IMG/VR virus record: IMGVR_UViG_3300044655_001686
Location: 1-34,902 of that record
Origin: a virus
DNA length: 34,902 nt
Direction: 5' to 3' (one strand)
Under the pieces are notes generated by a model that ran no database searches, was not told the DNA's origin, and saw only the letters and a program-made list of their open reading frames with translations. The position numbers and the translations under genes were made by a program. How positions within the stretch are numbered: the stretch's first letter is position 1; each line of letters begins with the position of its first letter. Below are positions 2,945-34,803 of this stretch, one piece after another.

Positions 2945-3645
2945 GCATTTTTTAACAATGGCGCCAAAAAAGTATCTATGTACTGTTGATGTGCGATTGT
3001 TGCAGGATAGTGTGCATTCAAAAACGGCTGAGACGTTGAGATTGCCCAGGGCAAAAATCCACCAATGTCAGCAAACTTGCTTAGATCAATATGATCAGTA
3101 ATTTTGATCTCTTTGGTAAAAGTCCCGTGATGATAGTTGATTGGACAGTCAAATGGCAGCGCAGTCATCATGTGATATGTGATGCCTTTGGTCGCTAGAT
3201 ACAACTGAGCAGTGATAATCGAAGTATACCAATTATGCACAGCCTGATATGGACTGTAAAAATATTTAAAATATTTGTGCTTGTATCCACGAGGAACACT
3301 ACCGTTTAATATGTAACCTTGGTCCAGCTGAGCCTGACCATGTAGATCTACCAGTTGAGGCTGTGTGCCATCTGGCCAACTGGCATGTACATAGTCTTGC
3401 AACAGATGAGGAGTGGTCTGATCTGCCCAGAGATCGTACCGGTCGGCACTGGGCCACATTATTATCACGAGATCATCAATGCCAATGTCTGATGTTAGTA
3501 TTCTTTTGCTAACATAATCTGCGCCGGCACCACGTTCAGCATGATTGTGCAATTCTAAATTGAGATCTTGTGCCAGCAGATCTGCCCAGGTATCTTGATA
3601 ATTGTCCTTGGTAAAACTGCACCCAAATGTAAATAATTTTTTCAT
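2941..3645 (-). CDS. SGNH/GDSL-like hydrolase domain protein
   Basis: A 234-residue protein beginning MKKLFTFGCSFTKDNYQDTW. The GCSFT block matches the nucleophile region of SGNH/GDSL esterases. A second block, ERGAGADY, carries the expected Gly, and the C-terminal segment NAHYPATIAHQQY holds a candidate catalytic His. Such enzymes remove acetyl or acyl groups from carbohydrates and lipids; in phages they are often found beside glycan genes. The actual substrate is unknown, and phage copies of this domain can be degenerate. It is the last gene of the amidinotransferase operon and overlaps the preceding gene by ATGA. A second, diverged protein with the same GCSF opening lies at 17732-18538. 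Confidence 0.6.
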   Translation of the reverse strand: MKKLFTFGCSFTKDNYQDTWADLLAQDLNLELHNHAERGAGADYVSKRILTSDIGIDDLVIIMWPSADRYDLWADQTTPHLLQDYVHASWPDGTQPQLVDLHGQAQLDQGYILNGSVPRGYKHKYFKYFYSPYQAVHNWYTSIITAQLYLATKGITYHMMTALPFDCPINYHHGTFTKEIKITDHIDLSKFADIGGFLPWAISTSQPFLNAHYPATIAHQQYIDTFLAPLLKNA

Positions 3646-4757
3646 GACAATAGGGTTGCAATCCGTTCATCTTGCGTACGATTGTAGGCTCTGGGTTCTT
3701 CTAAAAACGCAGGATCTAATAGGATGTCTTGTACTTGAGCACAAGTGTCTATGTTAGCATCGATCAGATCTTGCAATGGAACCTGGGCCAACTGTTTGAC
3801 CATGTCAATGACCAAACGGAATCGATCAAAGTCTTGTTGCACAGAATCGTGTGATTGGTCAATGCTGTAGTCCAGAGGCAGATGGTAATCGTTCTTCAAG
3901 TATTCAATAGTACGTGGTTGACCAGAGTTCAGCAACACACAACCGGTAAGCAAAGTTTTCCAAGTTTTTTCTGTGATAAAAGGCCCCGGGCGATTATAAC
4001 GTTCTTGGCCGTTGTCAAGCCAGCCCATGCTGTCAGTCTCATTGTTAAAATTACACAACGATGATTCAAACGCTGGATTGAATATATCCATCATGTTATT
4101 TTTAACTGTATTACGCCCCCAGTTGTACTCGTCTACAGTTAGTTCTTGTTCCAACACACTCCAGTCAAGGTCACTGAATACTGGGCTGTCCTGAAACGAT
4201 TGTATAAGATCTTTTTGAATTGTGCTAGGACTATTATCAAGCAAATGCCAACTCATGATACTTTGAGCTCGGGCATAGTTACACAACGCGGCGGTAACTG
4301 TTGCACGAGCCTGTCTCATAAAGTAACTCAGACTACTAAACTTGTATTTGATCTTTTTGTCTTTGACTCTCAAAACTTGAGATACATCAAAGCAGTCATG
4401 AAACATTTCCATTCTGATGTAATAATGACGATATTTGATATGTGTCACGTTGCTGGGCAATGGATAGTCATATGGATCTAAATCAGCCAACCACACAACG
4501 GGCACGTCAGGATATCGAAGACCCAATGCCCTTACATCGTCGTATCTTGGGCTTTCGGCGCAACTAGTAAACAGTATGGATTTATGTTGTGGGGTCAATT
4601 GTATAAGATCAACAGCCGGCCCATCTGAATTCAATAGCATGCACACACGATCAAGGTCGATGTTTTTCATAAATCCATAACGGCGATACCAAAAATCAAA
4701 TTGAGCATGCCCAACAGACACATCGTTTGGGAATAACGTATCCAACCATTTGGTCAT
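3642..4757 (-). CDS. glycosyltransferase-like phage protein, TEKTW family (type A)
   Basis: A 371-residue protein of a phage family I know only as hypothetical or glycosyltransferase-like. The most telling segment is FITEKTWKTLLTGCVLLNSG at about residues 262-281. It resembles the EK...G nucleotide-sugar-binding segment of GT10/GT-B enzymes. It is followed by the family block DYSIDQSHDS...DFDRF. The product at 8199-9302 has the same architecture (YVTEKTWKPLLAGC, then DLSHDSETRDFDR), so these two are paralogues. The gene overlaps the upstream amidinotransferase by ATGA and the downstream SGNH gene likewise, so the three should be translationally coupled. Glycosyl transfer is inferred from the C-terminal motif and context only; donor and acceptor are unknown. 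Confidence 0.6.
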   Translation of the reverse strand: MTKWLDTLFPNDVSVGHAQFDFWYRRYGFMKNIDLDRVCMLLNSDGPAVDLIQLTPQHKSILFTSCAESPRYDDVRALGLRYPDVPVVWLADLDPYDYPLPSNVTHIKYRHYYIRMEMFHDCFDVSQVLRVKDKKIKYKFSSLSYFMRQARATVTAALCNYARAQSIMSWHLLDNSPSTIQKDLIQSFQDSPVFSDLDWSVLEQELTVDEYNWGRNTVKNNMMDIFNPAFESSLCNFNNETDSMGWLDNGQERYNRPGPFITEKTWKTLLTGCVLLNSGQPRTIEYLKNDYHLPLDYSIDQSHDSVQQDFDRFRLVIDMVKQLAQVPLQDLIDANIDTCAQVQDILLDPAFLEEPRAYNRTQDERIATLLS

Positions 4758-5839
4758 TTAAAAAAACTCTGTAAAGTGCCTTGTCGATCCAAGTCATTGG
4801 TGATGCAGTGAATACCTGCGTCCCAGAAATAGCGATGTCTGAAAGGACTAACGTGTACTTCAATACCATGTCTGGCACAAGCCTGCTCAACTTGATCATT
4901 GTGACTGCTCACCACAATGTTCTTGTGATCAATCACAAGGATGTTGACATCAAACACAGTTTCGCAGACGTTGCCAACCCAGTCTTCAAAGTAGTATTCT
5001 ACTGTGTTGATAAGATTAGAATCTTGATCAAATCCGGGAATGTGCCAACGACCGCGATTGATTCTCATGCTGGCTTGAAACTCACGCATGTGTTCATAGT
5101 TGCTGGGTGGCAAGTATACCACTTCCCAGTCAGGAAATGTATCAGCGTATGTGGGTATATCTTGTAGGCTAATAATCAATCCAGGAGTCACTGGACAATA
5201 TGTAGCATCGCCGTGTCCACCTGCATTCACAATCTTGTTGTGTGTGGTGGGAAAGTGTGTGTTCACTGTTGCGAGCAATGCCGCTTGATCTTCGCTGTAT
5301 TCTTGTGTGGCAAAATACAAGTTTTTACCAATGCGACTCACAAAAGAACCGTTTACAAAATCCAAATCTGTTTGTTGCACTGTGTTGCCTTGATCACGAA
5401 CATGTTGGAAAATGTCTGTGTAACAACTTAGTTTGGCGTTGAGTTGTGCTTGATCCTGCCGATCAAATTCTTCACGATTCAAAATATTTTGTCTTGCAAA
5501 TGCACGATCCGTGTGTATACGATTGGGCACAGTGGGAACCCACAGTCGATCTTGTATCATGACAAAGTAATCTCTGGGGCAAACCGGTGGTTGCATCCAG
5601 CGACCTTGTATATTCAACGAACTGAGATCCACAGGCAGTTGAGGCCGCAACACACGGATTCCGAACTTGCCTTGTAATAAACTAATAAGGGCTTGATAGT
5701 CTTGTTCGGTTTCTTCTGCCAACTGTTCAAATCGTTGGCGTGTGTTTGCGTCTTGGATCCATCTATAAAATTCCGGCGGGTAACTCGTACCTATGACGCA
5801 TACCTTTAACGGATCCCAGTGTTGAAAAACAGAATACAT
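4754..5839 (-). CDS. GATM-type amidinotransferase, copy 1
   Basis: A 361-residue protein of the glycine/inosamine amidinotransferase family, which moves an amidino group from arginine to an amine. The C-terminal nucleophile block GIHCITNDL..QGTLQSFF (C345) closely matches the HCxTxDxRRxGTLQSY block of animal AGAT. NAGGHGDATY (H209, D211) corresponds to the MHIDATF block and CPRD (D90) to the substrate-binding PRD. AGAT has a triad Asp in FDAADF, but here the aligned stretch reads FVNGSF (Ser165), so the acid may be lost or moved to D160. It is about 70 % identical, without gaps, to the product of 6798-7898. The ATG lies three bases after the previous stop. The acceptor is unknown; neighbouring glycosyltransferase-like genes suggest an amino sugar or similar metabolite. 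Confidence 0.88.
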   Translation of the reverse strand: MYSVFQHWDPLKVCVIGTSYPPEFYRWIQDANTRQRFEQLAEETEQDYQALISLLQGKFGIRVLRPQLPVDLSSLNIQGRWMQPPVCPRDYFVMIQDRLWVPTVPNRIHTDRAFARQNILNREEFDRQDQAQLNAKLSCYTDIFQHVRDQGNTVQQTDLDFVNGSFVSRIGKNLYFATQEYSEDQAALLATVNTHFPTTHNKIVNAGGHGDATYCPVTPGLIISLQDIPTYADTFPDWEVVYLPPSNYEHMREFQASMRINRGRWHIPGFDQDSNLINTVEYYFEDWVGNVCETVFDVNILVIDHKNIVVSSHNDQVEQACARHGIEVHVSPFRHRYFWDAGIHCITNDLDRQGTLQSFFK

Positions 5840-5842
5840 TTG

Positions 5843-6808
5843 TTAAGTAATTTCCAATGCAGCAATTTCTTTAAGAGCTTGTTTAAATTTGTCGGGCCAG
5901 GCCAGTCGCAATTTTAACAGCAGTTGTTGATTGCGTTGTGCTCGTTGTTCAAAATCTTCAAGTACTGCATCTGTATAATCAATAGGTGTAGACAACTGAT
6001 CCAGGATCATTGTTTGTCTTTTAAAATTCAACGGCTCTTGATCGTAACTGTGATCAATATAGTCATCAAACACATCAAACCCCCAATCACGCAAACATGA
6101 CACTGCACCAACAGAACTTAACAACAACCAGGGTCTCGGTAACTGTATACTACGCCAGGTCTTTTCAGTAAAAACATTGGCGTCAGGATCATCAAAAAAT
6201 GTTTCAAGTATCACAGTTCTTTCACTATCAAGTATGGCGTCTTCTATCGAACATGTAAAATTTTTGTATGGAATTTTTCCCTGTAATTGTTGATGTTCAT
6301 CTTTAAAAATTTCATTGCCAATCAACAAAGATTCAAAATTTTCACTAGCGGACAACGGGCCCAATCGATTCTCACACCAGTAACTTATGTGCCCATGGTC
6401 CAATAGAGATCGACGAACAAACTGGTACATCCAACTTTGTCTAAATTGACATCCTCGATTTATAAAACAGTTGAATTTTTTTGTGGGTTTCGAATTGACA
6501 TAGTCAAAATTGTAATGATACACACCAAAGTACTCAGGTGCCAAGGTTATGGTTTTCCAATCCAGAGAATTTACAACTCCGTCAGTAATGTAGTAATCTC
6601 TTTGATCCTCCTTGACTGGATTATGACAAAAATTTATTTCAAGAGTGCAGTTGTTTTTTGTGTATGTTGCATGGTCTTTACGATTGGTAGAATTAATTTT
6701 CCAGTTATTGTGATCCAGCACTTGGGAAACAGTTTTCAACACTACCTTACTCCAGTCTCGACTGGGGTGGTGCAGCATCAACTGATCCTTGTACAGGTCA
6801 TTGACCAT
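5843..6808 (-). CDS. glycosyltransferase-like phage protein, TEKTW family (type B)
   Basis: A 321-residue protein with VFTEKTWRSIQLPRPWLLLS at about residue 210, followed by SCLRDWGFDVFDDYIDHSYD. The second block is nearly repeated in the plus-strand protein at 16683-17744 (HYRDWGFETFGDVIDETYDN), which marks a second subfamily beside type A. I chose the ATG at 6808 because GAGG lies seven bases upstream; the longer frame from 6856 lies within the preceding gene. The gene sits between the two amidinotransferase copies and overlaps the upstream one by 11 bases. A transferase role is inferred from the EK-type C-terminal motif and the context; no catalytic residue can be assigned with confidence. 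Confidence 0.55.
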   Translation of the reverse strand: MVNDLYKDQLMLHHPSRDWSKVVLKTVSQVLDHNNWKINSTNRKDHATYTKNNCTLEINFCHNPVKEDQRDYYITDGVVNSLDWKTITLAPEYFGVYHYNFDYVNSKPTKKFNCFINRGCQFRQSWMYQFVRRSLLDHGHISYWCENRLGPLSASENFESLLIGNEIFKDEHQQLQGKIPYKNFTCSIEDAILDSERTVILETFFDDPDANVFTEKTWRSIQLPRPWLLLSSVGAVSCLRDWGFDVFDDYIDHSYDQEPLNFKRQTMILDQLSTPIDYTDAVLEDFEQRAQRNQQLLLKLRLAWPDKFKQALKEIAALEIT

Positions 6809-7898
6809 GCGGATCCTCAAGGAAAGTTTGCATTGTTCCTTCACGATGTAAATCATTGGTCACACAATGAATACCGCAGTCCCAAAAATATTTGTGACGG
6901 AATGGCACAACATGAACATCAATGCCATGTCTAGCGCAAGCCGATTCAACTTGATCATTGTGGGCTGACACAACAATGTTTTTATTATCCACAATCAAAA
7001 TGTTGACGTCGAACACTGTTTCACTCACTTGTCCTACCCAAGTATCAAAATAATATTCGACCATGTTCACAAGGTGTTGATCATACTCAAAGCCTGGCAT
7101 GTGCCATCGCCCTTTGGTACTTTTCATGGACCCTTCAAACTCTCTCATGTGTGCATAATTACTAGGAGGCAAGTATATCACTTCCCAGTCAGGAAATGTA
7201 TCAGCATAAGTAGGAATGTCACGCAAACTTATGATCAAGCCAGGTGCAACTGGACAATATGTTGCATCACCGTGACCTCCTGCATTGACAATTCTGTTAC
7301 GAGTGTCTGGAAACAACTGATCAACTTTGTTTTTAAGTACAGATTGATCTTCATCATAACTTTGTGTGGCAAAAAATAAATCCCTGCCAATTCGACTTAC
7401 AAAGCATCCACTGACAACATCTAGTTCAGTTGGCCTCACTTGATTGCCCTGTTGCTGAACTAGATCAAAAATATTCTGATAGCACATGAGTTTGGCAGTG
7501 TGTTGCTGTTGATCTCTACGATCAAATTCTTGTCGGTCCAATGTTGTCTGACTATTAAACACATGATTTGCATGACTACGGTTAGGCACAGTAGGAACCC
7601 ATAGCTGGTCATGGATCATCAGATAATAGTCTCTAGGAGTTACTGGTGGTTGTATCCATCGATCATTTATTTTTAACACTGATAGATCTTCGGGCAACTG
7701 TGGTCTCACTACTTGTACGCCGAATTTTTTTTGCAATAGATTGATAAGACCTTGATAGTCTTGTTCGGTTTCTTCGGCCATGCGTTGGAAACGTTGACGC
7801 ATGTTGGTATTCTGGATCCATGAATAAAATTCTGGATCGTAAGTTCTTCCTACCACACAGACCTTTAGTGGATCCCAGTGTTGAAATACAGAATACAT
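6798..7898 (-). CDS. GATM-type amidinotransferase, copy 2
   Basis: A 366-residue paralogue of the protein at 4754-5839, colinear from the shared N-terminus MYSVFQHWDPLKVCV to the C-terminus, with 251 of 360 positions identical by my hand count. It keeps PRD (D90), GGHGDATY (H209, D211) and the nucleophile block GIHCVTNDL (C345). Where AGAT has its triad Asp this copy has VVSGCF (Cys165). The two copies are also alike in DNA: a block of about 27 bases near 7169 matches one near 5123 exactly. Divergence is concentrated around residues 110-200, which could mean different acceptors. It follows the DsbA-like gene directly and should be driven by the promoter at 8181-8209. A tail of six residues after position 360 is unique to this copy. 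Confidence 0.88.
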   Translation of the reverse strand: MYSVFQHWDPLKVCVVGRTYDPEFYSWIQNTNMRQRFQRMAEETEQDYQGLINLLQKKFGVQVVRPQLPEDLSVLKINDRWIQPPVTPRDYYLMIHDQLWVPTVPNRSHANHVFNSQTTLDRQEFDRRDQQQHTAKLMCYQNIFDLVQQQGNQVRPTELDVVSGCFVSRIGRDLFFATQSYDEDQSVLKNKVDQLFPDTRNRIVNAGGHGDATYCPVAPGLIISLRDIPTYADTFPDWEVIYLPPSNYAHMREFEGSMKSTKGRWHMPGFEYDQHLVNMVEYYFDTWVGQVSETVFDVNILIVDNKNIVVSAHNDQVESACARHGIDVHVVPFRHKYFWDCGIHCVTNDLHREGTMQTFLEDPHGQ

Positions 7899-8159
7899 TT
7901 AGAGGGTTTTACCTACAGTTTCTAAAATAGTCTCAAGTGTCTCGTGGTCTTGTTTTTCCTTGCCGAACTCAGCCTTGTGTGCCAATTTGATAGCCTTTTT
8001 CAAGATAGCCGGTTTCACTTCCAGTTCCTCAGCAATGGCTTTGATGGTGTCATTGAGTCCACCTTGTAAGGTATCAATTTCGTGCATGACCTGCATGCCC
8101 TCGTTGATGATTTGGGTGAGTTTGATCTTTTGATCGCCGTTGAATGTTTTTGCTGACAT
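7899..8159 (-). CDS. DsbA-like small double-stranded-DNA-binding protein (T4 type)
   Basis: An 86-residue, charged, all-helical protein. Its size and its pattern (a helical N-terminus, then ELEVKPAILKKAIKLAHKAE, then an acidic tail) resemble T4 DsbA, a dsDNA-binding protein that assists late transcription. The T4 protein has a comparable ELGVDGKMFNRLLALYHK segment followed by an acidic end. A strong Shine-Dalgarno (AAAGGAGAT) precedes the ATG and a sigma70-like promoter lies upstream, so it should be well expressed. It heads the amidinotransferase operon. The assignment rests on pattern similarity in a short protein and could be wrong. Confidence 0.6.
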   Translation of the reverse strand: MSAKTFNGDQKIKLTQIINEGMQVMHEIDTLQGGLNDTIKAIAEELEVKPAILKKAIKLAHKAEFGKEKQDHETLETILETVGKTL

Positions 8160-28894: not shown

Positions 28895-29545
28895 TTATTT
28901 AGCACGGGCTATAATGGGCAGGGTCTTTCTGACAACACCGGGCACAGCCATGTTGATCAAGAAATCAGCATTGGGTTCGTTGTGATCCACAAAATAGTTG
29001 CTCATCAACCACATTCTTTTGCCTTTTACTAAGTTAGCAAAGCCCGGGCCTTGTCTAAACATGTCAGGCCTGGCGGCAAAATAACGACGCAAGGTCGACA
29101 TGTCGTCGTTTGAAAGCCAGCGTTCCCGGAAATATGTTCTAAATGCATGACGTGGATTTTTCAATGTCACTGCGTCTGGATTCATGTTTACCAAGGCTTG
29201 ATTTACGTACAGAATCTCGCCTGTGGGTATGGTCACAATATCCTCAAAATCTTCAGGATCGTTGGTGTATAACCATAGCCCGTTGCCACATACCACTTTC
29301 TTGTAAGGATGCGCTCGGGCCAACAAATAATCACAGGCCTGGTGCAATGTTTTTTCAACCTCAGGAGTGATATGTCTTGCACCACCACGGCGAGCAATCC
29401 ATTCGTTTCTGTAGCGAATACTCTGATTGATCCGCTCATGTTTGAGTTCACGCAAGAAACTGGCCTCGGGCAAGATAAACAAGATCACATACTGCCACTT
29501 GTGAAAGTACAGGCTACTGCGTGGTACTAGAACAGGCTTACGCAT
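28895..29545 (-). CDS. hypothetical protein (216 residues) next to clpA
   Basis: A protein from the ATG at 29545 (MRKPVLVPRSSLYFHKWQYV), overlapping the clpA stop by eight bases. It is rich in aromatic residues and Arg (RTYFRERWLSNDDMSTLRRYF, split here as RTYFRERW and DDMSTLRRYF), with GLWLYTNDPEDFEDI in the middle. I recognise no family. A longer start at 29569 lies inside clpA and adds only eight residues. Tight spacing suggests it could be an adaptor or partner of the ClpA-type unfoldase, but that is a guess from position only. It looks complete and stable in composition. Confidence 0.6.
   Translation of the reverse strand: MRKPVLVPRSSLYFHKWQYVILFILPEASFLRELKHERINQSIRYRNEWIARRGGARHITPEVEKTLHQACDYLLARAHPYKKVVCGNGLWLYTNDPEDFEDIVTIPTGEILYVNQALVNMNPDAVTLKNPRHAFRTYFRERWLSNDDMSTLRRYFAARPDMFRQGPGFANLVKGKRMWLMSNYFVDHNEPNADFLINMAVPGVVRKTLPIIARAK
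28896..28903 (-). promoter_or_regulatory. late-promoter-like GCTAAATA before the 55-residue gene
   Basis: GCTAAATA overlaps the stop codon (TAA) of the upstream gene and its last base is seven bases from an ATG without a Shine-Dalgarno. It has the same sequence as the element at 27897-27904. Confidence 0.35.
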
Positions 29546-31805
29546 CCGGGAATCTGATAATGCCATCATCTGCTACTACAGGAACCACTCGTGTTGCAAC
29601 ATCAAACACAACTTTATCGTTGGCCAAGTCTGCGGTGATATCACATTCGGCCAGGCGATCAAACAAGATCCGCTTGCTCAGTGGTACCCGAATAAGTTCA
29701 TCAATCTTCCTCGAGAGTGGTCGCGCACCCAACTTCGAATCGTAGCCTTTGTCAGCAAGCATGTCAACGACTGATTCGGATAAATTGAGGTGTATACCTT
29801 TTGCAAGCAAACTTGTCTTGAGCTCATCCACAAACTTGACAACGACTTTCTTGACCGCCAAAGTATCCAACTTGGTGAATTTAACAATTTGGTCGATACG
29901 GTTGCGTAGCTCGGGTTTGAAAAATTCCTTGACAGCTTTGTCGTCCTCACCAGTCTTTTCAAAGCTACCAAAGCCAATGTTATTTGCTTCACTGTCTCGG
30001 GCTCCCAGGTTTGATGTCATGATGATGATGCAGTTCTTGCAGTTGGCTTTTTTGCCGTTGCTACTGGTAATGACACCTTCATCCAGCATTTGTAGCAAGA
30101 TGTTGGTAACGTCGGGGTGAGCCTTCTCTATCTCATCAAACAATATTACTGAGAAGGGATTCTTGCTGAGATCGGAGATTAGTTTGCCACCACCCACGTT
30201 ACCATCTTCAAAACCCACATAGCCCGGAGGAGCACCAATCAAGCTGGATACTGAGTGGCGTTCTTGATATTCGCTCATGTCATACTTGAGCAGTTTCATG
30301 TCCAAGTTATCACTCAGCAGTCTGGCAAGTTCTGTTTTACCTGTGCCTGTTGGGCCCAGGAACAAGAAACTGGCCATGGGTTTCTTTTCATTGGCAATGC
30401 CAGCAAAGTTGATGTACACACGTTCCAGCACTGAATCAACAGCACCATCCTGCCCGTACAATTTCTGCTTGATGTTGCCTTCCAGTTCCACAATCTTTGT
30501 GCTACGCTCGTTTTGAAGTTTGTCTGCAGGTACACCTGTTACTCGTGCCAGTTGTTGTTCGATCATGGCCTTGGTAATGGTCACAAGGCCCAGATCTTTC
30601 ACACGCTCACGGGCACAAGCCGCATCAATCAAGTCGATTGATTTGTCGGGATTCTTGCGATCGTGTATGTAACGGTTGGCCAGTTCCACTGCGGCAGTCA
30701 TTGCTTCTGTATCAATCATCACATTGTGAAACTGTTCTAAGCGTGGTGAGAGTCCGATTAGAATCTGTTCAGTGGTGTTCGCATCCGGTTCGTCTATGGA
30801 CAACCTGTAGAAGCGGCGCATTAACGCACGATCCTTTTCGAAACTCTCGTAATATTCTTCCCATGTGGTTGACGCCACGACTTTGAGATTGCCTTTGGTG
30901 ATAGCAGGCTTCAGCATGTTGGCAAAGTCCAAACTGCTTTGCGATCCAGCACCAGCACCCTTCATGGTGTGTGCTTCATCCACAAACAAGATGCAGTTCT
31001 TTTTGGCTTCTAGTGCCGCAATCACTGCCTTGAACTTTTCTTCAAACTCGCCACGGTATTTAGATCCTGCCAGCAAGTCGCCCACTTCCAGGCTCCATAC
31101 TTCTGAGCCCTTGATAAACTCCGGCACACGGCCTGCATGAATCTCTTGTGCTAGACCTTCGATGATGGCAGTTTTGCCCACACCAGGATCGCCTACCATG
31201 AGCACGTTGGCCTTGAAACGGCGTGCCAACACAGTGATCATTTCGTGCAGTTCTTCTGTACGACCGATCAAGGGCTCCAGGCGATTATCATGAGCCATCT
31301 TGCTGAGATTGGTACAGTATTCTGTGAGAATCTCATTGGCTTGATCTTGACTCATTGAGCTTTCACTTGCTGACGCTGACTTGTAGTGCTTTTGCCAGTG
31401 ATCCACAAACTCTTGTTTCTTCACACCATACTTGAGCAGGAAGTAGTGAGCATGGCTGTTGCCTTCGCTCATGATTGACAGATACAAATCCACAGTGCTC
31501 ATGGCACGACGACCAGTAAACATCACCTGTACATTGGCACGATTGAACAGTCTTTCCAGTGCTGTGGTCTTGCGAGGCTGTGTGTCCGGGATTTTACTGA
31601 CCAGGCCAGTTAGACTCACTAGATAGTGTTCTACTTCATGTTCCATCTTGTCCACTTCTACCCCAAAACTTGTGAGGGTTTTTCTAAATGGAGGATGTTT
31701 CAACATGGCCAGCAACAGGTGTTCTGTGACCACGTACTCGTGTTTGAGGTTGGAGGCAATCTTGACTGCTTGTTCCACAATGCCGGTGATTTCAGGGTTG
31801 TTCAT
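29538..31805 (-). CDS. clpA: ClpA-type AAA+ unfoldase with ClpP-docking loop
   Basis: A 755-residue protein, the length of bacterial ClpA (about 758). The order is: Clp N-domain (1-145), first AAA+ with Walker A GDPGVGKT (205-212) and Walker B ILFVDEAH (272-279), then second AAA+ with GPTGTGKT (484-491) and ILFDEIE (554-560). LIGAPPGYVGFEDG is the pore and sensor region. N-N-I-G-F (608-612) lies where ClpA has IGL and ClpX has IGF, the loop that docks on ClpP. It lacks the long ClpB middle coiled coil. It should feed proteins to the host ClpP, and no clpP is seen here. A consensus-like promoter (TTGATC-17-TATAAT) precedes it, so it could be early. DnaJ-like follows on the far side of the promoter. 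Confidence 0.95.
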   Translation of the reverse strand: MNNPEITGIVEQAVKIASNLKHEYVVTEHLLLAMLKHPPFRKTLTSFGVEVDKMEHEVEHYLVSLTGLVSKIPDTQPRKTTALERLFNRANVQVMFTGRRAMSTVDLYLSIMSEGNSHAHYFLLKYGVKKQEFVDHWQKHYKSASASESSMSQDQANEILTEYCTNLSKMAHDNRLEPLIGRTEELHEMITVLARRFKANVLMVGDPGVGKTAIIEGLAQEIHAGRVPEFIKGSEVWSLEVGDLLAGSKYRGEFEEKFKAVIAALEAKKNCILFVDEAHTMKGAGAGSQSSLDFANMLKPAITKGNLKVVASTTWEEYYESFEKDRALMRRFYRLSIDEPDANTTEQILIGLSPRLEQFHNVMIDTEAMTAAVELANRYIHDRKNPDKSIDLIDAACARERVKDLGLVTITKAMIEQQLARVTGVPADKLQNERSTKIVELEGNIKQKLYGQDGAVDSVLERVYINFAGIANEKKPMASFLFLGPTGTGKTELARLLSDNLDMKLLKYDMSEYQERHSVSSLIGAPPGYVGFEDGNVGGGKLISDLSKNPFSVILFDEIEKAHPDVTNILLQMLDEGVITSSNGKKANCKNCIIIMTSNLGARDSEANNIGFGSFEKTGEDDKAVKEFFKPELRNRIDQIVKFTKLDTLAVKKVVVKFVDELKTSLLAKGIHLNLSESVVDMLADKGYDSKLGARPLSRKIDELIRVPLSKRILFDRLAECDITADLANDKVVFDVATRVVPVVADDGIIRFPDA

Positions 31806-31875: not shown

Positions 31876-32655
31876 TTATGCATGATTTTGGATGGCTGTG
31901 ATAATTTCGGGCGCGATTGTCTTGGGAATTTCTGTTTGTATCTGCACCATGAGATCACCTTTTTGCCCCGACTGATCCCCCAGGCCTTGTGATCTCAGTC
32001 GCAATGTGGTTCCGGGTTGAGTGTGTGGCGCAACCCTTACCACTAGTCGATTGCCTTCCACAGTTTGCACTTCGGTCTCGCCGCCCAGAATCAAGGTCCA
32101 TATGGATACCTTGTGTGTGGTTGCAAGATTGAGGCCTTGTCGTTGAAAGTTAGCATGTGGTTGTATTCTAAATTGGATCACTAGATCCTGTCCTCCGGGT
32201 GCAATACCAGGGTACTGTACATTGTCACCATCATTGATGCCCAGGGGTATTTCAATTTCAACTGTGCTGGTTCCGGCCTGTGTGCCCAGGGCCACAGGCC
32301 GCTTGCCGCCACGAGCCACGTCCAACAACGTGATCCAAAGGCTCATGCGCACATGATTACGACGCGGCTGTTGTCCAAATGGTGATTGTCCCCCGAACAT
32401 TTGGCCAAAAATATCATGGATGTTTACGTGTACCCCACCGCCATTGAATCCCGGGAATTGTGGTGCAGGATTGTCGTAGGCCTGTCGTTTGGCTTCGTCA
32501 CCTAGTGTGTCATAGGCCGCTTGTATCTCTTGAAATTTCTTTGTATCTCCACCTTTGTCAGGATGATGCTGGCTGGCCAGCCGGCGGAAAGCACGTTTGA
32601 TTTCATCCTGAGTGGCGTTTCGCGCAACGCCTAGTGTTGCATAGTGATCGGTCAT
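31876..32655 (-). CDS. dnaJ: DnaJ/CbpA-like co-chaperone (no zinc finger)
   Basis: A 259-residue class B Hsp40. The J domain (1-66) has HHPDKGGDTKKF with the essential HPD (31-33), which stimulates the ATPase of DnaK. A Gly-rich stretch follows (PQFPGFNGGGVHVNI, then QSPFGQQPRR), then two C-terminal peptide-binding subdomains (VEIEIPLGINDGDNVQYPGI and the ILGGETEV block). There are no CxxCxGxG repeats, as in CbpA and unlike DnaJ proper. No dnaK is in view, so it must use the host one. It could support assembly or divert host chaperones. The ATG at 32655 lies right beside a terminator hairpin and a perfect promoter. Confidence 0.92.
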   Translation of the reverse strand: MTDHYATLGVARNATQDEIKRAFRRLASQHHPDKGGDTKKFQEIQAAYDTLGDEAKRQAYDNPAPQFPGFNGGGVHVNIHDIFGQMFGGQSPFGQQPRRNHVRMSLWITLLDVARGGKRPVALGTQAGTSTVEIEIPLGINDGDNVQYPGIAPGGQDLVIQFRIQPHANFQRQGLNLATTHKVSIWTLILGGETEVQTVEGNRLVVRVAPHTQPGTTLRLRSQGLGDQSGQKGDLMVQIQTEIPKTIAPEIITAIQNHA

Positions 32656-32656
32656 T

Positions 32657-32688
32657 AAAAAGCCCTGTATGTTTAATTATACAGGGCT
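32657..32688 (-). terminator. intrinsic terminator of the holin/secreted-protein unit, upstream of dnaJ
   Basis: On the minus strand AGCCCTGTA (32680-32688) pairs with TACAGGGCT (32661-32669), nine perfect pairs and a ten-base loop, followed by TTTT at 32657-32660. This is a classical rho-independent terminator for transcripts arriving from holin. It lies two bases from the dnaJ start and contains the dnaJ -10 element. Confidence 0.85.
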
Positions 32689-32704
32689 GGTGGTGCTGTG
32701 TCAA
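32676..32704 (-). promoter_or_regulatory. perfect consensus sigma70 promoter of dnaJ, overlapping the terminator
   Basis: TTGACA (32699-32704), exactly 17 bases, then TATAAT (32676-32681). The start would be near 32669, inside the hairpin, so dnaJ mRNA lacks the first arm and cannot be terminated there. The AGGG of the second arm then serves as the Shine-Dalgarno, seven bases before the ATG. Confidence 0.85.
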
Positions 32705-32929
32705 TTACTTCTTTTTAGGCTCAGGTACTTTTTCTGCACCTTCTAGTTTTTTGTGTTGCTTGACTTCTTTGCAATTTTGTTTGACTTTTTTGGTTTTGGG
32801 ATCAATTACATCCTTGCCTTGTTTGTCTTTGACGTCCACGCAGACTCGTTTGGTTTCTTTCTTGGGCTCTTCGGCAATGACAAATTGACTACCTAGGGCC
32901 AGTGCGAGTGCAATTAATAAATGTTTCAT
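32705..32929 (-). CDS. small secreted lysine-rich protein
   Basis: A 74-residue protein. MKHLLIALALALGSQFVIAEE is a signal peptide with probable cleavage after A19. The mature part is very rich in Lys and Glu, with VKDKQGKDVIDPKTKKVK at its centre flanked by two Cys (C29, C52) that could form a disulfide in the periplasm. A good Shine-Dalgarno (AAGGAA) precedes the ATG; the gene lies 13 bases after holin. Its place next to the holin suggests a role at the envelope or in lysis, but the sequence does not look like a known spanin or an inhibitor of lysis. Function unknown. Confidence 0.7.
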   Translation of the reverse strand: MKHLLIALALALGSQFVIAEEPKKETKRVCVDVKDKQGKDVIDPKTKKVKQNCKEVKQHKKLEGAEKVPEPKKK

Positions 32930-32942
32930 TTTTGTTTCCTTT

Positions 32943-33437
32943 TTATCTTTCTGGGAACGGTGGAATCACAGGTGCAGGTTTGCCTCCGAATCCTGTGGTG
33001 ACTTCAGCCGCTGGCGTTCCAGTTCCTGTACTGCTATTAAAGCCGCTTGGTGTTGTTGGAGTAGTACCCCAGCTTGGCGCAGGCGTAAAACTTGTGCCGG
33101 GTGCTGGTGTGCCAAATCCTGTTGAGGGTGCGCTTGTTGTTTGTGCTCCGCCATTGTTTGCTCCTGCCATTTTTTCCTGTGTGCGACCAAATGCCGCAAT
33201 ACCTAAAACTGCACCCATTGCAATGTGGAATAGTCCAGCACCTTGTAAGGTCAGTGGGTTCCATTGACTTGTAACTTGTCCGTGATTCAACGACTGTAGT
33301 AGACTCCATAACACTGGAAATACCACCATGTCCATGGTACAGACCAGCATGTACATCCAACCCATCATTGGACGCCATTTTGAGTTCATCCAATCTTCTT
33401 TTTTCTTTTCACTTTCGCTTTTGACTTCTTCTGCCAT
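32943..33437 (-). CDS. holin, 3TM phage/GTA family
   Basis: A 164-residue protein with WRPMMGWMYMLVCTMDMVVF near the start, then SQWNPLTLQGAGLFHIAMGA, which I match to the phage/gene-transfer-agent 3TM holin family. Predicted helices are at about 23-47 and 65-84. The N-terminus is charged. After residue 90 a long Gly/Pro/Thr-rich tail (GFGTPAPGTSFTPAPSWG) extends the protein well past the usual holin core. Holins open the inner membrane to release the endolysin. AAGGAG lies six bases before the ATG, and an exact T4-type late promoter (33461-33468) starts transcription 18 bases upstream. This is consistent with late lysis timing. No endolysin gene is seen in the window. Confidence 0.85.
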   Translation of the reverse strand: MAEEVKSESEKKKEDWMNSKWRPMMGWMYMLVCTMDMVVFPVLWSLLQSLNHGQVTSQWNPLTLQGAGLFHIAMGAVLGIAAFGRTQEKMAGANNGGAQTTSAPSTGFGTPAPGTSFTPAPSWGTTPTTPSGFNSSTGTGTPAAEVTTGFGGKPAPVIPPFPER

Positions 33438-33460: not shown

Positions 33461-33468
33461 TATTTATA
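33461..33468 (-). promoter_or_regulatory. T4-type late promoter (TATAAATA) of the holin gene
   Basis: An exact TATAAATA on the minus strand. T4 spacing gives a start near 33455, and the 18-base leader carries AAGGAG. This is the clearest late promoter in the window and matches the expected timing of a holin. Confidence 0.8.
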
Positions 33469-33513: not shown

Positions 33514-33521
33514 AATAAATA
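33514..33521 (+). promoter_or_regulatory. T4-type late-promoter-like AATAAATA of the csg genes
   Basis: Seven of eight bases match TATAAATA. Transcription would begin near 33527, with GAGG (33528-33531) directly behind it and the csgF ATG at 33539. It lies back to back with the holin late promoter. Confidence 0.6.
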
Positions 33522-33538: not shown

Positions 33539-33979
33539 ATGAAAAAAACAATAACACTATTAGCCCTGATGCTGATTTCAGCTGGAGTTTCTGCCACTGA
33601 ACTAGTACATCAGTTCAATTCCCCAGCTTTTTCAGGAGTCGGTTACAGTAGCCACGTGCTTACAATCGAGCAACTGGAAGCCACACGCCGACAAAAGCTA
33701 CGAGAAGAAGAAGCCAGCAGGCTAGCCAAGGCCGAGCTTGCGGCCAAACAAACCAACATAGCCAAATTCCTAGTCAACGTAGAAAGTCGCATCTATGCTC
33801 AGTTGAGCAAGCAGTTGGCAGACTCGTTATTCAGCGGTGGGGGCACCACAGGCAGCATGGATTTTCAAGGCACCAACATCAGTTGGGTCAAAACTTCTAC
33901 TGATGTCACCATGACCATTCTAGAAAGCAATGGCAATCGCACAGAAATCACTGTGCCACTAGCGAGTTTTGCATTTTGA
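33539..33979 (+). CDS. csgF: CsgF-like curli assembly protein
   Basis: A 146-residue secreted protein. The signal peptide MKKTITLLALMLISAGVSA is followed by TELVHQFNSPAFSGVGY, which matches the FQFRNPNFGG start of mature E. coli CsgF that plugs the CsgG pore. A helical Lys/Glu/Ala-rich middle (about 43-80) and a beta C-terminus (FQGTNISW ... TEITVPLASF) follow the CsgF layout. CsgF couples curli secretion and nucleation at the cell surface. GAGG precedes the ATG by seven bases. It is followed by csgG with a one-base overlap. A phage location for curli machinery is unusual. Confidence 0.85.
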   Translation: MKKTITLLALMLISAGVSATELVHQFNSPAFSGVGYSSHVLTIEQLEATRRQKLREEEASRLAKAELAAKQTNIAKFLVNVESRIYAQLSKQLADSLFSGGGTTGSMDFQGTNISWVKTSTDVTMTILESNGNRTEITVPLASFAF

Positions 33980-34803
33980 TGAAAGCACTGGTGTTGTCAT
34001 TGTTGTTGATGTTGAGCGGGTGTGCCAGTTTGGATCAAACTCAATTTGATTCACAGCCGCCTAAATTAGTGCCACGACAGAACCTGTTGGCCACACTGCC
34101 TGAATTGGATGGACCAAGAATACCAATTGCTGTGTACGGGTTCGTGGACAAGACCGGGCAGAAAAAAAGCAACGACAAGCTGGCGCTGTTTTCAACTGCG
34201 GTCACACAAGGTGCCGAAGTATTTCTGATCAAGGCCTTGCAGGACACGCCAAACTGGTTTACAGTGGTTGAACGTGTGAGCTTGGACAACTTGATCAAAG
34301 AACGTCAGTTGATTCGCAATCAGCGCGAAGTGTACGAAGGTAAAGATGCCAAGCCACTCAAACCACTTTTGGTGGCTGGGCTCATGATCGAAGGTGGCAT
34401 CATAGGTTATGACACCAACATAACAAGTGGTGGTACTGGCGCCAGAGTACTGGGCATTGGAGCCAGTACACAATATCGTGTGGATGAAATTGTTATTTCC
34501 ATGCGAGTAGTTTCAGTCAACACCGGGGAAGTGTTGCTGAATACGGCTGTGAGTAAAACTGTTTTCAGTACAGCTCACAATCAAGGTGTTCTCAAATTTA
34601 TTGATGTTGGAACAACGTCTATTGAATTTGAGAACGGGGCTGCTGTGAATGAGCCCACTACATACGCTGTTCGAATAGCCATTGAACAAGCGGTGTATGA
34701 AATGATCCAAGAAGGAGCAAAACGGAAACTTTGGTCATACAAAAAGGGTACACCCCCAAGGAATGCGGCTGAGGATAGTAACTCGCCCACAAAACAAAAA
34801 TGA
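33979..34803 (+). CDS. csgG: CsgG-like curli secretion lipoprotein
   Basis: A 274-residue outer-membrane lipoprotein. MKALVLSLLLMLSGCASL has a lipobox (LSGC) with acylated C15. PRIPIAVYGFVDKTGQKKSN, LIKALQDTPNWFTVVERVSL and LDNLIKERQLIRNQ, then GVIIGYDTNITSGG-like (here GGIIGYDTNITSGGTGARV) and RVDEIVISMRVVSVNTGEVL are the classic CsgG blocks, in order. CsgG forms a nonameric channel that exports curlin. It looks complete in length and motifs. The ATG at 33979 overlaps the csgF stop; the upstream TTG at 33976 adds one residue only. It is followed by a curlin-like gene, so the triplet can in principle make and export a fibre. Confidence 0.93.
   Translation: MKALVLSLLLMLSGCASLDQTQFDSQPPKLVPRQNLLATLPELDGPRIPIAVYGFVDKTGQKKSNDKLALFSTAVTQGAEVFLIKALQDTPNWFTVVERVSLDNLIKERQLIRNQREVYEGKDAKPLKPLLVAGLMIEGGIIGYDTNITSGGTGARVLGIGASTQYRVDEIVISMRVVSVNTGEVLLNTAVSKTVFSTAHNQGVLKFIDVGTTSIEFENGAAVNEPTTYAVRIAIEQAVYEMIQEGAKRKLWSYKKGTPPRNAAEDSNSPTKQK

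Follow-up and report, generated by a model that had tools for sequence, protein, structure and literature searches.

A conserved overlap of promoter and terminator-like hairpin, probably a compact insulator, ahead of dnaJ in uncultured T4-like phages

The stretch of viral DNA analysed here (34,902 nt, hereafter the window) carries, in the gap between a small gene, p74, and dnaJ, a consensus sigma-70 promoter whose -10 hexamer lies within a terminator-like hairpin. This composite is real, conserved and functionally coherent, and its probable role is that of a compact insulator, through which dnaJ is switched on by its own promoter only. Comparison of sequences establishes its geometry, its conservation, the compensatory changes in its stem and its link to a co-directional upstream gene. 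The window phage encodes an 886-aa DNA polymerase B with best matches in large T4-like phages, which places it among them, and the arrangement is kept in more than 100 related contigs of a large group of uncultured T4-like phages. The genes around the element and its parts are as follows.

29538..31805, minus strand: gene for a Clp-family AAA+ ATPase, downstream of dnaJ
31876..32655, minus strand: dnaJ, 259 aa, with a J domain and a DnaJ C-terminal domain
32657..32661, minus strand: U-tract of the putative terminator (T5), shortened by the dnaJ start codon
32666-32663, minus strand: AGGG Shine-Dalgarno, part of the 3' arm and 7 nt ahead of the dnaJ ATG (32655-32653)
32668..32670, minus strand: predicted transcription start, 6 +/- 1 nt past the -10, where loop and 3' arm meet, placed from the 6-nt peak described below
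32681-32676, minus strand: -10 hexamer TATAAT, bases 1-3 in the 5' arm and the others in the loop
32674-32681, minus strand: extended -10 TATAATTA, which contains TATAAT
32688-32661, minus strand: terminator-like hairpin AGCCCTGTAT-AATTAAAC-ATACAGGGCT, 10 bp with an 8-nt loop and co-varying stem pairs
32704-32699, minus strand: TTGACA, the -35 hexamer, which immediately follows the stop codon of p74
32705..32929, minus strand: p74, an ORF of 74 aa that is rich in Lys, begins like a signal peptide and is conserved as the immediate upstream neighbour of the element
32943..33437, minus strand: holin (phrog_3427 / Pfam GTA_holin_3TM)
33461..33468, minus strand: T4-type late promoter motif TATAAATA, 23 nt ahead of the holin ATG

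The Clp-family gene has a promoter-like site of its own (TTGATC-17-TATAAT, 31861-31833). Next to holin, the phage bears the curli secretion genes csgF and csgG (window 33539-34803, plus strand; Pfam matches), which come with a late-type promoter motif, AATAAATA, at 33514-33521.

The dnaJ promoter agrees with the sigma-70 consensus at 12 of 12 bases with a 17-nt spacer, 16-18 nt being allowed, and a promoter scan found it to be the single perfect sigma-70 promoter of the window. The hairpin stem has 10 pairs, or 9 if the closing A-U is left out, and its RNA is predicted to fold with -15.8 kcal/mol (z = -4.8), a stability reached by 0 of 200 shuffles. In sequence, this is an intrinsic terminator, namely a stable GC-containing hairpin followed by a U-tract, and transcript release is predicted from it; the terminator score is moderate (d = 4.2, with what we take to be the formula and cut-off of that score). 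The p74-dnaJ intergenic gap of 49 nt holds the whole composite element, which matches no known RNA family in Rfam up to E = 1. Re-reading the DNA bears out the coordinates and geometry given by the sequence-only reading, which had placed the -10 of a TTGACA-17-TATAAT promoter inside a nine-pair stem-loop and AGGG 7 nt ahead of the ATG. The same reading had taken holin for the direct upstream neighbour, and this was wrong, as p74 (32705-32929) sits between holin and dnaJ.

The mechanism that we propose, and regard as quite probable, is a promoter-embedded intrinsic terminator by which late holin-p74 RNA would be ended or attenuated. Upon passing through the gap, this RNA would fold the hairpin and its U-tract, whereas the same gap as DNA would act as a consensus host sigma-70 promoter with the -10 within the hairpin. 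RNA begun locally would start in the loop without the 5' arm, so that no terminator would form and elongation would continue, and dnaJ would thus be expressed mainly from its own promoter. For the window phage and relatives of the CCTGTA type, release of the 3' arm would also provide the Shine-Dalgarno, which read-through RNA would keep paired. By folding, the predicted accessibility of the start region is 0.41 in read-through RNA versus 0.77 in the local transcript, the shorter transcript being more accessible almost by construction. Termination itself, the start site, the early and late timing and the Shine-Dalgarno switch are what we infer from these features, with the timing read from the type of promoter. 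The insulation of dnaJ from holin transcription had already been put forward by the sequence-only reading and gains strong comparative support (covariation, a co-directional upstream gene, overlap across lineages), except that, with a terminator score that is only moderate (d = 4.2), "stop" may mean "attenuate". Hiding of the Shine-Dalgarno in read-through RNA, which it had also proposed, is plausible in the window phage and the CCTGTA-type relatives but is not general: no clear Shine-Dalgarno is seen in the arm of the GGTATAGTA-type hairpins or of L019 and L023, and the GGTATAGTA lineage makes that part of the model lineage-specific.

Chance is excluded as the origin of the composite ahead of dnaJ. 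Promoter/terminator overlaps number 29 in 693 kb of relatives, where shuffles give 1-4, and with a single exception they are found directly ahead of dnaJ or directly behind p74. Scans of 2.9 million viral contigs with two hairpin sequences, in which dnaJ was not used as an anchor, both returned mostly dnaJ promoters. In particular, the GGTATAGTA-type query pattern, AAGGTATAGTA-N3..8-TACTATACCTT, yielded 80 loci for analysis; a -35 of at least 5/6 is found at 16-18 nt in 80/80, and a readable DnaJ ORF lies behind 73/80; the other 7 gave no complete ORF, and several of these sit at the end of the locus. Among 65 CCTGTA-type matches, 44 stand ahead of dnaJ and 8 ahead of other ORFs with a good -35, including two (L172 and L181) that still follow p74; the remaining matches are mostly without a good -35. 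A survey of six large records found the -10-in-terminator form only at dnaJ, and this survey together with the unanchored hairpin scans led us to reject, for the -10-in-stem form, a mobile cassette present at many loci.

A few genes besides dnaJ have similar composites (L133, L139, L158, L161, L163 and L143), and in G016, G020 and G021 further early genes have the form with the -35 in the loop. At G016:50920, G020:35031 and 25462, and G021:96913, TTGACA lies in a terminator loop, the -10 follows past the U-tract and the ATG comes 6 nt on. In L133, L139, L158, L161 and L163, a CCTGTATAATTA composite with AGGAG in the 3' arm precedes a 100-102-aa gene (MSKVFGAPEQ...) and not dnaJ; by eye, its product looks similar to that of window ORF 7899-8159. 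The neighbouring window ORFs 4754-5839 and 6798-7898 (minus strand) have very similar N termini (MYSVFQHWDPLKVCV...), probably as a result of duplication.

At the dnaJ locus itself, the 76 relatives recovered by a DnaJ scan of viral contigs fall into several designs. Type A, with the -10 within a terminator-like hairpin, comprises the window and 16 dereplicated relatives whose stems are mostly CCTGTA (the count includes L040, whose element precedes an inserted gene), and 5 further relatives with GGTATAGTA stems. Type B has the -10 in a hairpin that lacks a U-tract and an ATG 6-13 nt further on, mostly 6-9 nt past the -10, so that the mRNA should be leaderless or nearly so. In type C it is the -35 that lies in a terminator loop, with the ATG close behind the -10 (6 nt in L051, L053, L054, L055 and L063). 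In types A and C, most members show a U-tract and score positive as terminators, some relatives scoring below 0, and no good hairpin is found in L035, L025 and L030 despite an adjacent p74. The arm sequences vary (CCTGTA, CCCAGTA, CAGACAGTA, GGTATAGTA, TGTGTGTA) and the pairing is retained. Nearly all dnaJ promoters of the CCTGTA type and of type B conserve the extension TATAATTA and not just TATAAT; overall, TA follows TATAAT in 15 of 108 early promoters. In the isolates Atu_ph07 and Phosso, the dnaJ-clp order is present, the genes are tightly packed and no composite is found.

These designs bear on another, simple explanation, that the hairpin is just the 3' end of the p74 message and overlaps the promoter from lack of space. 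A gap of 49 nt in compact phage genomes would agree with this, and the canonical tandem order, terminator then promoter, does exist in L067 and in phage RB49. Against it, overlap with either the -10 or the -35 is retained across lineages, all 80 GGTATAGTA-type copies hold the -35 at 16-18 nt, and a promoter outside the terminator is the exception among the relatives. Crowding as the sole cause is therefore quite unlikely.

The promoter-embedded terminator also accounts for a tie to the upstream genes. Most relatives have holin and p74 homologs upstream of dnaJ and co-directional with it, and 33 of the 39 with an adjacent co-directional p74 carry an overlapping hairpin versus 0 of 16 otherwise (Fisher 2.5e-9, a value that ignores phylogeny). 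Where holin-p74 is inverted and thus divergent (L020, L026, L029, L031), an ordinary promoter, 25-32 nt ahead of the ATG, serves dnaJ and there is no hairpin; this arrangement represents at least 2 changes on the tree, with the hairpin always absent. Similarity of the upstream DNA suggests that the holin-p74 module has been moved by recombination. Genes have been inserted at the site in L009, L040, L172 and L181, and in the last three, where the insertion lies ahead of dnaJ, the element remains behind p74, which fits a terminator of the p74 message and not an operator of dnaJ. The exact motif NATAAATA stands before holin in only 9 of 44 relatives, so that late control of holin may not be general.

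Whether RNA or DNA is under selection can be read from the stem. In the alignment of CCTGTA-type elements (17 sequences, 11 pairs), 5 of the 11 stem pairs change on both sides and 96.8% of cells are paired; 0 of 500 shuffles match the paired fraction or the covariation score, and sliding the partner destroys the pairing. Read on the dnaJ-sense strand, the stem has 18 G.U wobbles, or 12 if the outermost pair is set aside, and 0 A.C; 7 of the wobbles face an unchangeable -10 base and 6 are in the outermost pair beside the U-tract. Sense-strand G.U without any A.C points to selection on RNA of the dnaJ-sense strand and not on a DNA palindrome. This is a difficulty for the idea that a repressor covering the -10 uses the inverted repeat as its DNA operator, an idea which would otherwise draw on a palindrome centred on the -10 even without a U-tract and on the conservation of TATAATTA. 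Indeed, the arms differ in sequence with pairing kept, the hairpin is missing where the upstream gene is divergent or absent, and in type C it covers the -35 instead, so that an operator is extremely unlikely.

A role of the RNA hairpin other than termination has to be weighed as well. The hairpin might mainly block translation of read-through RNA, as at T4 gene e, with termination weak or absent and the local RNA translated via the freed Shine-Dalgarno or as a leaderless message. Such a block has precedents in T4 gene e and I-TevI (PMC3014915, PMC2988022), and it would explain why type B keeps a hairpin over the -10 without a U-tract and with the ATG mostly 6-9 nt past the -10, which implies that termination is not the sole role everywhere. 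In the leaderless L004, L011 and L017, the AUG itself lies in the 3' arm and its predicted accessibility in read-through RNA is 0.00; thus a block of read-through translation may be a second, shared role. As the main role it appears rather unlikely, since a U-tract and a positive terminator score are the rule in types A and C, the arm of the GGTATAGTA lineage carries no Shine-Dalgarno, the distance from hairpin to ATG is variable, and the AUG is on average no less accessible than with shuffled upstream sequence.

The start site on which the preferred reading, a terminator embedded in the promoter, depends is likely marked by leaderless genes of the relatives. In six large relatives searched genome-wide (G001, G005, G009, G016, G020, G021; L078-L126), an ATG stands exactly 6 nt past the -10 in 20 of 137 early promoters versus 36 of 7846 control -10 sites, a peak suggesting that leaderless early genes are common in these phages. 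A start near 32669 in the window, as predicted, would fit this 6-nt spacing between -10 and start codon. A second ATG peak lies near 30 nt past the early -10 and comes with AAAGGAG-like Shine-Dalgarnos, and some late TATAAATA sites stand 5 nt ahead of an ATG, in the window before 14830.

The overlap might instead couple the two operons. Bacterial RNAP is reported to stay on DNA and to re-initiate after intrinsic termination (PMC6978380, PMC6978322); polymerase terminated at the U-tract, about 25 bp or less from the dnaJ -10, could do so at dnaJ. In this way, transcription of the chaperone gene would be fed by late holin transcription with no need for read-through. The conserved TATAATTA, being close to the late motif TATAAATA, could also make this start usable by the late sigma factor. 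We consider this coupling very doubtful.

With insulation as the probable function, the element matters in several respects. One 50-bp stretch is under promoter, terminator and, in one lineage, Shine-Dalgarno constraints together, and is conserved and locus-specific. Its variation over more than 100 phage contigs shows trade-offs among a -10 in the stem, a -35 in the loop and a leaderless start, and it offers a ready design for compact insulators.

Several known systems resemble the element in part. Compared with an ordinary intrinsic (Rho-independent) terminator, it has the GC-containing stem, short loop and U-tract, but the U-tract is shortened by the next start codon and the bases double as a promoter. 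Promoter-early stem-loops (PeSLs) are present in many copies per genome and are linked to gene shuffling. They are described as composite promoter-terminator motifs of T4-type phages (Arbiol 2010, among the papers cited in PMC4503421). Like them, the element combines a sigma-70-like early promoter and a stem-loop terminator between phage genes; unlike the many dispersed PeSLs, the -10-in-stem element occurs once per genome, mostly at dnaJ. As to gene shuffling, the site shows insertions in L009, L040, L172 and L181 and an inverted holin-p74 in L020/26/29/31. In RB49, a phage of E. coli, such sites commonly have the terminator right before a TTGACA promoter, and one site is a comparable composite: on the minus strand at 3201 of NC_005066 (L128), after gene 39, a terminator with a 13-bp stem has TATAAT exactly in its loop, with the Shine-Dalgarno, unlike that of the window element, outside the hairpin. 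This region matches 58 phage records, in one of which a terminator is annotated, and it makes the composite testable in E. coli.

At T4 gene e, I-TevI and mobE, the promoter is placed so that local RNA loses the 5' arm of a hairpin hiding the ribosome binding site (PMC3014915, PMC2988022). As in T4 gene e, soc, I-TevI and mobE, the local promoter of the element lies in the region of the 5' arm, and the ribosome binding site is predicted to be paired in read-through RNA and freed in local RNA (0.41 vs 0.77). In the gene e group, however, a late (gp55) promoter lies inside early or middle transcripts, whereas here a sigma-70 promoter lies downstream of a late gene; indeed, the dnaJ promoter, TTGACA-17-TATAAT(TA), does not have the gp55 late-promoter sequence TATAAATA. 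The element also differs from that group in its U-tract, so that termination is expected. No paper on an overlap of promoter and terminator came up in a phrase search of the literature. Collectively, hairpins of the gene e type, PeSLs and the RB49 site at 3201 mean that the principle is not new; what is new is a dnaJ-specific, co-varying, single-copy element in a large clade, with a Shine-Dalgarno in its arm and alternative designs at one locus.
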